Source: an uncultured Eudoraea sp.
Lineage (GTDB): Bacteria; Bacteroidota; Bacteroidia; Flavobacteriales; Flavobacteriaceae
Direction: 5' to 3'
DNA length: 64,000 bases
Assembly: GCF_947490415.1 (NCBI RefSeq)
Contig: NZ_CANLGX010000003.1
Span: 248,001-312,000 of the forward strand
This document shows, in pieces, positions 32,471 to 61,003 of this stretch (position 1 is its first letter; each line of letters opens with the position of its first letter). Position numbers and translations under genes: made by a program. The notes under the pieces were generated by a model. The model was not told where the DNA came from and searched no databases. It worked only from the letters and a program-made list of their open reading frames with translations.

Positions 32471-32502
32471 AAAAAAAGGAGGTTAATTTCTATTACCTCC
32501 TT
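32471..32502 (-). terminator. Intrinsic terminator of the leftward microprotein array
   Basis: Read on the minus strand, AAGGAGGT (32502-32495) and ACCTCCTT (32483-32476) form an 8-bp stem with an 11-base loop. The last two stem Ts run on through 32475-32471, giving seven Ts in all. It lies 46 bp beyond the stop of the last 37-codon frame. The plus strand has only a short, poor T-run, so the structure serves mainly leftward transcription. Confidence 0.7.
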
Positions 32503-32547: not shown

Positions 32548-32661
32548 TTACCGTACATAATTTCTGCTTTCTGTCCAACGTACTCTTTTACTGTCCTTAA
32601 AATTAGAGAAGTATGAAAACCTCCTTGAATCTGTTGGTGAATGGTGCAATAAATTTCTCAT
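32548..32661 (-). CDS. Tandem basic microprotein, copy 1 (distal)
   Basis: A 37-residue open frame on the minus strand, from ATG at 32661 to TAA at 32548. The core reads SPTDSRR then FSNFKDSKRVRWTESRNY. It aligns without gaps to two more frames of identical length at 32713-32826 and 32852-32965. Twenty-one of 37 positions are the same in all three, and several shared residues use different codons (for example Ser19, Arg28), the mark of selection on protein rather than DNA. I do not recognise the family. It is the most diverged copy in its first eight residues (LLHHS) and is followed by a terminator. Confidence 0.7.
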   Translation of the reverse strand: MRNLLHHSPTDSRRFSYFSNFKDSKRVRWTESRNYVR

Positions 32662-32712
32662 TTCTTTGATATTTAATATTTTGATTACTTACTATTTTTC
32701 TATCTATAATTC

Positions 32713-32826
32713 TTATATAGTATAGTGTCGTACTTCTGACCAGCGCACTCTTTTACTGTTTTTAAAATTTGAAAAGAACGTATGTCTTCTGGATTCTGTT
32801 GGTGTTTGTTTGATAAAATGCCTCAT
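32713..32826 (-). CDS. Tandem basic microprotein, copy 2 (middle)
   Basis: A 37-residue minus-strand frame, ATG at 32826 and TAA at 32713. It reads TPTESRR, then FSNFKNSKRVRWSEVRHY. It starts 25 bp after the stop of copy 3 and ends 51 bp before the start of copy 1, so the three could be one transcript. There is no signal peptide, membrane segment or cysteine. It is strongly basic, with Lys and Arg far outnumbering acidic residues, which would suit binding to RNA, DNA or a ribosome; this is conjecture. Confidence 0.7.
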   Translation of the reverse strand: MRHFIKQTPTESRRHTFFSNFKNSKRVRWSEVRHYTI

Positions 32827-32851
32827 GATTTGTTCGTTTTTGATATTAATA

Positions 32852-32965
32852 TTAATTGATATAGTTTCTAGCTTCTGACCAGCGTACTCTTTTGCTGTTT
32901 TTAAAATTGGAAAAGAATGAATACCTTCTTGATCCTGTTGGTGTTTGATTGTTAAAATTTCTCAT
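32852..32965 (-). CDS. Tandem basic microprotein, copy 3 (promoter-proximal)
   Basis: A 37-residue minus-strand frame, ATG at 32965 and TAA at 32852. It reads TPTGSRR, then FSNFKNSKRVRWSEARNY. It has eight Lys/Arg and a single Glu. It is the first of the three from the presumed promoter side and closest in sequence to copy 2. No Shine-Dalgarno is present, which is normal for the phylum. It has no similarity I can recall to toxins, ribosomal proteins or hibernation factors. Confidence 0.7.
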   Translation of the reverse strand: MRNFNNQTPTGSRRYSFFSNFKNSKRVRWSEARNYIN

Positions 32966-33041
32966 CGTTTAAGTTTTTAAATTGATATTGTTTGTTTTTA
33001 CTTTTTATAAACTGTAAATCTTAAAGACCTACAACTAATAG

Positions 33042-33131
33042 ACGACAATTAAATTCATTTGTTACAGTACTATGTATAAAATAGTACCGTTTTATACATT
33101 TTTTAACAGATTATGTTTTTACCATTGTCGT
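33042..33131. repeat. Nested inverted repeats between microprotein array and EF-G-like gene
   Basis: An inner perfect 10-bp dyad, ATGTATAAAA (33072-33081) and TTTTATACAT (33090-33099), is flanked by an outer perfect 8-bp dyad, ACGACAAT (33042-33049) and ATTGTCGT (33124-33131). Both are centred at about 33086. They lie in the 404-bp gap (32966-33369) between the leftward microprotein genes and the rightward EF-G-like gene, where both promoters must sit. A shared operator or a cruciform is possible. I saw no gene in the rest of the gap. Confidence 0.5.
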
Positions 33132-60002: not shown

Positions 60003-60176
60003 CCACTACAAATTTTTCCAAGTGTTTTTCGGGTAAATATTGGGGTTCTTCCCCTTGATATTTTTTGAAATATATCACTTAATTACCTCTGCCCTTTTTT
60101 GTAATAACTTAAATAAAGGCTTAATGTTATTACAAAACAATTGCTTCAATTTTTAGTGCGATTTGTAACAAAAATT

Positions 60177-60193
60177 AAAAGACGTCGTCTTTT
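60177..60193. repeat. Compact inverted repeat upstream of a small ORF
   Basis: AAAAGACG and CGTCTTTT are perfect complements around a single T. The site ends 29 bp before the ATG of the 39-residue small ORF. The tiny loop makes an RNA hairpin unlikely, so a protein-binding operator is the better reading. Confidence 0.4.
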
Positions 60194-60222: not shown

Positions 60223-60342
60223 ATGAGAACACTTGACATGAACTACATTAAACGGACCTTAAATTATCAAATGGGTTATGGATGGGGAATGAGCAGAAGT
60301 CATTCCTTAAAAAGAACTTATAGAAATAACAAATCCTCTTAA
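60223..60342 (+). CDS. Small ORF, 39 residues, unknown, upstream of the head-GIN gene
   Basis: A frame from ATG at 60223 to TAA at 60342 encoding a basic peptide with NYIKRTLNYQMGYGWGMSR and a C-terminal SLKRTYRNNKSS. It starts after the sequence CATC, the same as the head-GIN gene 17 bp downstream, and is preceded by an inverted repeat. The layout suggests a real first gene of a two-gene operon. Function is unknown. Confidence 0.45.
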   Translation: MRTLDMNYIKRTLNYQMGYGWGMSRSHSLKRTYRNNKSS

Positions 60343-60358
60343 ATCAATTCAATACATC

Positions 60359-61003
60359 ATGAGAAGGTTATTTTTAATAGCAATCACGGCAATAACATTA
60401 GCCTCCTGCTCCAAAGATGATTATACAGGATCAGGAAATACGGTTTCAGAATTCAGAGACGTAAATCTATTTACTAAAATTAGTAGTGAAGGAACCTTTG
60501 GTGTTAATATAACTCAGGGTCCGACACAATCTTTGGAAATTATCGCGGATGACAATATCATTGGCAGAGTTAAAACCACAGTTTCCGATGGACAATTAAA
60601 GATACATCTGGAAGATGGAAACTATAAAAACACCTATTTGGAAGCCAATATTACGGTGGCGGATTTAAATGGCATAAAAAACGAAGGCACAGGAGATATT
60701 ACTGTATTCGAATTACAAAATACCGGGATTATGGAAATTGAAAATGTAGGGACTGGAAATATTGCAATTGCCGGTTACACAGATAACTTAACTATTATCA
60801 ATGAAGGGTCCGGAACTATTAATTGTGCAGAGTTTATGGCGGCCAATGTAGATTTGCGCATTGAGGGCTCAGGAGATTGTGAAGTATATTGCACAGAAAA
60901 TTTAAAAGTGACCATTGAAGGCAGTGGTAATGTTTATTACAAAGGTAGTCCCAGTATGATTATAGATATATCCGGCTCAGGACAGGTTATTCCTATGAAT
61001 TGA
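60359..61003 (+). CDS. Head-GIN domain (DUF2807) lipoprotein
   Basis: A 214-residue lipoprotein (signal ending LASC) with a beta-helix made of short repeats such as GIKNEGTGDITV, NVGTGNIAI, NEGSGTINC and EGSGNVYY. This is the putative auto-transporter adhesin head-GIN family, found widely in Bacteroidota and without settled function. It overlaps by 11 bp at its 3' end with the convergent pseudouridine synthase gene. Confidence 0.8.
   Translation: MRRLFLIAITAITLASCSKDDYTGSGNTVSEFRDVNLFTKISSEGTFGVNITQGPTQSLEIIADDNIIGRVKTTVSDGQLKIHLEDGNYKNTYLEANITVADLNGIKNEGTGDITVFELQNTGIMEIENVGTGNIAIAGYTDNLTIINEGSGTINCAEFMAANVDLRIEGSGDCEVYCTENLKVTIEGSGNVYYKGSPSMIIDISGSGQVIPMN

Follow-up and report, generated by a model that had tools for sequence, protein, structure and literature searches.

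What do three consecutive 37-codon frames on one strand of a flavobacterial genome encode, and what controls them? The frames lie in tandem on the minus strand of a 64,000-nt stretch of DNA, here called the window, from an uncultured Eudoraea sp. of the family Flavobacteriaceae (RefSeq assembly GCF_947490415.1, contig NZ_CANLGX010000003.1, positions 248,001 to 312,000). A first-pass annotation, made from the letters of the window alone, had described them as an array of paralogous microprotein genes. We examined their coding status, their upstream region, and their relatives across the family. The array very probably forms an operon of its own, from which three cationic microproteins of the cytoplasm would be made under envelope stress, through predicted control by an extracytoplasmic function (ECF) sigma factor and a PadR-type regulator.

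Coding status of the tandem frames

Each frame consists of a methionine codon, 36 further residues, and TAA, and the three peptides align without a gap, with identical residues in 21 of the 37 columns. Shared residues are in places specified by different codons (Ser19 by TCT, TCA, and TCC; Val27 by GTA, GTG, and GTA). As first described, the peptides are highly basic and contain no Cys: copy 3 has eight Lys or Arg residues and one Glu, and net charges across the array are +6, +7, and +7. No signal sequence was seen by eye. The first-pass annotation had read the codon differences as selection on a peptide, and the comparison of close relatives supports this. The order of the three-unit array is kept in nine close records, namely, the window, seven records titled Eudoraea, and one titled Flavobacteriaceae bacterium (L210). 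Using a strict pattern, we split their units into 7 last units and 20 other sequences; besides first and second units, the larger group includes two last units (L205, L209) and thus compares paralogues as well. In-frame ratios of nonsynonymous to synonymous differences (pN/pS) were 0.14 for the 7 last units and 0.24 for the other 20 sequences, whereas frames shifted by +1 and +2 gave 1.38 and 1.74 (last units) or 1.24 and 1.48 (others). Differences among last units were distributed over the three codon positions as 78/51/253, so that 253 of 382 fall at the third. On the in-frame pN/pS, a DNA repeat without coding function was rejected. A metagenome-assembled genome titled Eudoraea sp. (L225, L229) is without the three-unit array and carries one and two units at separate loci.

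The spacers between units (25 and 51 nt) had been called unconserved. This holds for each spacer taken in full, although an A-rich initiation signal of the flavobacterial kind marks the starts. Across 134 starts, A occurred at a frequency of 0.76 to 0.93 at positions −13 to −10 and of 0.76 at −3, against a background of 0.43. The pattern agrees with determinants measured in Flavobacterium johnsoniae, where, according to the available part of the report, A at −3, −6, −12, and −13 accompanies stronger translation (PMC6847099). From the substitution pattern and the start sites we conclude that purifying selection acts on the three frames as protein genes and that each of them has a translation-initiation signal of its own.

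A genome-wide search of the 3.9-Mb genome matched the three frames only to one another. Related genomes hold homologues, for which the first pass had proposed a search: 42 of 299 family genomes matched at E ≤ 0.01, including 34 with a match at E ≤ 1e−4, and many carry several units. Three findings set the array above chance: the frames have no other match in their genome, relatives turn up in further genomes of the family, and only the proposed frame gives a pN/pS below 1. From 60 fetched loci, picked because they held array matches, we read 136 units; two members of protein set A2 are without their N terminus. The peptides had been said to resemble no known family, and the searches agree, with no Pfam or NCBIfam match at E ≤ 10, one PHROG row at E 0.23, and no match of the 37-residue profile to PDB sequences at E ≤ 1. 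A phage or plasmid origin was rejected, as tblastn gave no match for the peptide at 32852-32965 and that PHROG row was the best. Neighboring genes vary, the commonest neighbor cluster being common to 14 of the 60 array loci when neighbors were compared as clusters; a fixed neighborhood that would name the function was rejected on this count.

Three variations were seen among the loci. A shortened 24-residue version (MRTTIF.NSKR...) occurs at L073 and L075 in tandem arrays of up to five. At L042, L068, L069, L078, L089, and L090, at least one ATESKT-type unit is followed by a single, often diverged, terminal unit of NQSP type. By eye, spacers in L082, L086, L090, and others contain a short inverted repeat of the AATCGC-TAATC-GCGATT type over the stop codon of upstream-type units.

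A control region with elements shared by two regulator genes

The leftward terminator proposed after the last unit was upheld: a terminator-like hairpin has a folding energy of −10.8 kcal/mol and a z score of −2.7, and 5 of 200 shuffles reach as stable a fold; a pattern scan with a loop limit of 8 did not list it. Absent from the first-pass annotation, and described below, are the promoter with its dyad (33040-33087), the microprotein gene at 60223, and the broader group of microproteins.

Table 1. Coordinates of the features in the window
Feature	Position	Strand	Remark
Microprotein gene 1 (first transcribed)	32852..32965	minus	37 aa; conserved in close records
Microprotein gene 2 (middle)	32713..32826	minus	37 aa; conserved in close records
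Microprotein gene 3 (last transcribed)	32548..32661	minus	37 aa; pN/pS 0.14 among 7 last-unit sequences
Terminator-like hairpin, then U run	32476..32502	minus	Folding compared with shuffles
ECF-type −10 element CGTCT	33040..33044	minus	Spacer of 16 nt from −35
ECF-type −35 element TGTAAC	33061..33066	minus	Same element before sigma gene in 12/13 orthologues
21-bp dyad GTACTATTTTATACATAGTAC (minus-strand reading), predicted PadR operator	33067..33087		Abuts −35; similar dyad before PadR
Second ECF-type promoter (TGTAAC-N16-CGTC), dyad absent	60164..60189	plus	Before gene in 10/10 same-genus genomes
Second-kind microprotein, 39 aa, ...GYGW...	60223..60342	plus	Conserved in genus
DUF2807 (Toastrack-type) lipoprotein gene, 3′ of 39-aa microprotein	60359..61003	plus	

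In its −35 element, spacer, and −10 element, the array promoter (TGTAAC-N16-CGTC) is identical to the conserved promoter of an ECF sigma gene. The pattern TGTAACA-N14..16-CGTCT was found at 8 sites in the genome of the window, compared with 2 for the reversed control. One of these sites precedes the sigma gene, which is followed by genes for a small protein, two DUF4252 proteins, and a mechanosensitive channel; the small protein is anti-sigma-like by its position and one apparent membrane segment. (The names anti-sigma-like, pcm-like, EF-G-like, ExbD-like, YtxH-like, and DoxX-like were given by eye.) The orthologues that keep the promoter before the sigma gene comprise seven from the same genus, three from the same family, and two from other families. 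In Flavobacterium psychrophilum, a CGT box at −10 is attributed to ECF sigma factors in the part of the study available (PMC9723704). We predict from the shared promoter that the array belongs to the regulon of this DUF4252-cluster sigma factor, and from promoter and terminator together that the array gives rise to a leftward transcript.

The dyad has a palindrome score of 13.4 of 21 at its center and of at most 9.2 at the other centers tested. With a threshold of at least 14 of 18 matches, 22 of 24 genomes have a similar dyad upstream of PadR (8 of the 22 are of the same genus), and the PadR-upstream dyad outscores all 100 shuffles in 19 of the 24. In the genome of the window, the dyad matches on both strands at three places: the array, one orphan site, and the head of a DUF4870-PadR-PspC operon. 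The array dyad also resembles the tested site of cdPadR1 (Clostridium difficile PadR-s2); this protein binds TACT-N11/12-AGTA within a 21-bp motif in electrophoretic mobility shift assays, as described in the available text of that study (PMC5050560). An operator is predicted from the dyad, and the array is predicted to belong to the PadR (HAAS-PspC) regulon.

Both regulators were then compared with the presence of the promoter pattern defined in the next section. The sigma factor was present in 80 of 81 promoter-bearing genomes versus 90 of 118 others (Fisher P = 2e−6), and PadR in 81 of 81 versus 105 of 118 (P = 0.0009), in genomes that are not independent of one another. Each regulator is also common in genomes that lack the operon, which suggests that the operon was added to the outputs of older regulators.

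Other sites of these elements were also noted. At G000:C3:101660-101707 (L094, L130, L104), the genome of the window has a second dyad with an ECF-type promoter and no motif-bearing microprotein downstream; the site could hold a decayed array or a small RNA. In different genomes (C1:27459 [L096], L118, L194), the sigma promoter is followed by secreted-looking proteins that, by eye, repeat YLPxxFNP-like segments; the L118 protein had no Pfam match. A small secreted-looking protein follows the sigma promoter at C2:417207 (L097) in the genome of the window, and similar-looking ones follow microproteins in L109.

Microproteins behind the combined promoter

The core GTACTGTA, shared by 39 of 61 array upstream regions, belongs to a longer element whose downstream half is TGTAAC-N16-CGTC. 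As an exact pattern, which misses variants, the combined element GTACTGTAACA-N13..17-CGTC has 94 sites, spread over 81 of 199 family genomes, compared with 5 matches in 4 genomes for the reversed-pattern control; its N15 form occurred in 8 of 40 family genomes and in none of 206 genomes of the order outside the family. Within 500 nt of 84 of the 94 sites, the window array included, lies an open reading frame with the motif W-x3-[RK]-x-[YFH]. These frames are of a kind with a WNxKRRY-like end at 59 sites (55 with a 28- to 29-residue member), of the SKRVRW kind found in the window at 22, and of other kinds at 3. The same motif was detected in 21 of 2,000 random stretches and 10 of 2,220 shuffles. 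The fair count is 84 of 94, since a figure of 100 of 111 mixes in loci chosen for array matches. Mean net charges of the microprotein kinds range from +5.4 to +6.0 (136, 16, and 13 sequences), and the 37- and 28-residue profiles align without a gap as SKxxxWxxxRxY (hhalign probability 8.8%, E 0.0038). The 28-residue kind, searched against NCBIfam alone, had 0 of 16 matches; the 44-residue kind, searched against Pfam alone, had 1 of 13, to bPH_1 at E 0.073.

We lean toward the view that Flavobacteriaceae have a two-key promoter (ECF sigma plus PspC-linked PadR) that almost solely drives tandem cationic microproteins with an SKxxxWxxxRx[YF]-like C terminus, and that these proteins form a new class of envelope-stress effectors. 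If true, such effectors would be so short that annotation likely passes over them. The link to envelope stress is drawn because the two regulators point there.

Several observations weigh against the operon proposed at the outset. Transcription, translation, and induction of the array are all predicted. In roughly one array out of three the control region is degenerate or of another type (only 39 of 61 with the GTACTGTA core), and 10 of the 94 combined sites have no W-x3-[RK]-x-[YFH] microprotein within 500 nt. A scan for the dyad in the genome of the window, allowing 2 mismatches, returned 11 rows versus 7 for the reversed control. The sigma factor and PadR are near-universal in the family and sigma-negative genomes are often small or incomplete, which makes co-occurrence weak support. 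The hhalign probability of 8.8% is too low to establish homology of the 37- and 28-residue kinds, and the 28- and 44-residue kinds reach 1.9%. AlphaFold gave two short helices at a mean predicted local distance difference test (pLDDT) score of 66, a fold that is not confident and is too weak for a fold search. There was no amphipathic pattern, with hydrophobic moments in the three tested segments no higher than in shuffles.

The window holds a further microprotein of a second kind, at 60223. All 10 same-genus genomes searched had this GYGW protein and none of 16 others did; in 7 of the 10, a lipoprotein of 214 to 218 residues came next. Frames with a similar GxGW segment head the array operon in several other genomes. 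Three side observations concern other loci. An ExbD-like gene lies just 3′ of several operons of the 28-residue kind (L107, L110, L113, L117, L121, L131, and others). YtxH-like and DoxX-like genes directly follow the combined promoter in place of microproteins at L170 and L172. Arrays at L058 (plus strand), L065, L066, and L071 have upstream regions that resemble one another and differ from the dyad and ECF element.

Proposed function and relation to known systems

In the circuit that we propose, the ECF sigma factor would transcribe the array operon once released by its anti-sigma partner, and the PspC-linked HAAS/PadR pair, acting at the dyad, would block or assist RNA polymerase; the two signals would thereby be integrated. 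Tandem copies with strong initiation signals would supply a high dose of peptide. In the most speculative step, the C-terminal SKxxxWxxxRx[YF] segment would let the peptides bind a conserved macromolecule as their target. As that target we tentatively put RNA or the ribosome first.

It is possible, if rather doubtful, that the target is instead a protein partner and that the peptides are feedback regulators binding the sigma factor, the anti-sigma factor, or the HAAS-PspC/PadR pair. Microproteins are the usual output of a promoter carrying both elements, and a protein partner would suit the conserved length and the aromatic, basic C terminus; however, the 90 of 118 promoter-negative genomes that retain the sigma factor do so without this exact promoter. 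We consider it unlikely that the peptides coat the inner membrane surface by electrostatic binding to lipids, in a role that would correspond to PspA-type protection. Their strong positive charge, their Trp, Tyr, and Phe residues, and predicted control by a PspC-linked regulator would fit such a role, whereas their hydrophobic moments, no higher than in shuffles, argue against it. An RNA product, either tandem small RNAs or a decoy with incidental frames, is very improbable. Short repeated units with a terminator could form a small-RNA array, and at the G000:C3:101660 promoter the same control region occurs with no motif-bearing microprotein behind it; but the excess of third-position differences, a pN/pS that is low only in frame, and the initiation signals before the frames speak for protein, and no Rfam family matched above its gathering threshold within the window, which rejects a known RNA family. 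Leaderless multi-peptide bacteriocins are tandem short cationic peptides, and the array shares this design (mostly 28 to 44 residues, no obvious leader), but secreted or extracellular peptides of this type are scarcely credible here, given that no neighbor cluster is common to most arrays and the three segments give no amphipathic helix signal.

Under the preferred reading, a cytoplasmic microprotein operon with sigma and PadR control, sequence connects three parts in a single circuit that can be tested at named sites: an ECF sigma factor with no known regulon, a PadR/PspC module, and the microproteins as output. The reading also brings in conserved proteins of very small size, of which the 37-residue kind has no match in the libraries searched, and its promoter signature can be used to find further microproteins. 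To our knowledge, envelope-stress control in Bacteroidota is little studied. Judged by titles and the beginnings of abstracts among the matches listed, a scope with subscription papers mostly outside it, no description of the array operon was found.

Membrane-stress switches built from HAAS-PadR pairs together with PspC and Toastrack have been proposed (PMC11237479, in the part available). The genome of the window has like parts in its DUF4870-PadR-PspC operon and a DUF2807 gene. It differs in that the HAAS match of its PspC protein is weak (21.8 bits versus a cut-off of 27), and neither microprotein outputs nor an ECF promoter with a dyad was encountered in the accessible portion of that account. 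The SM6 promoters of F. psychrophilum are tied to type IX secretion system genes among others, and array-type microproteins were not encountered in the available text on them (PMC9723704). The predicted operator resembles that of cdPadR1, whose site also precedes its own gene in the part of the study at hand (PMC5050560); that protein belongs to another phylum, and here the predicted operator dyad abuts an ECF-type promoter.
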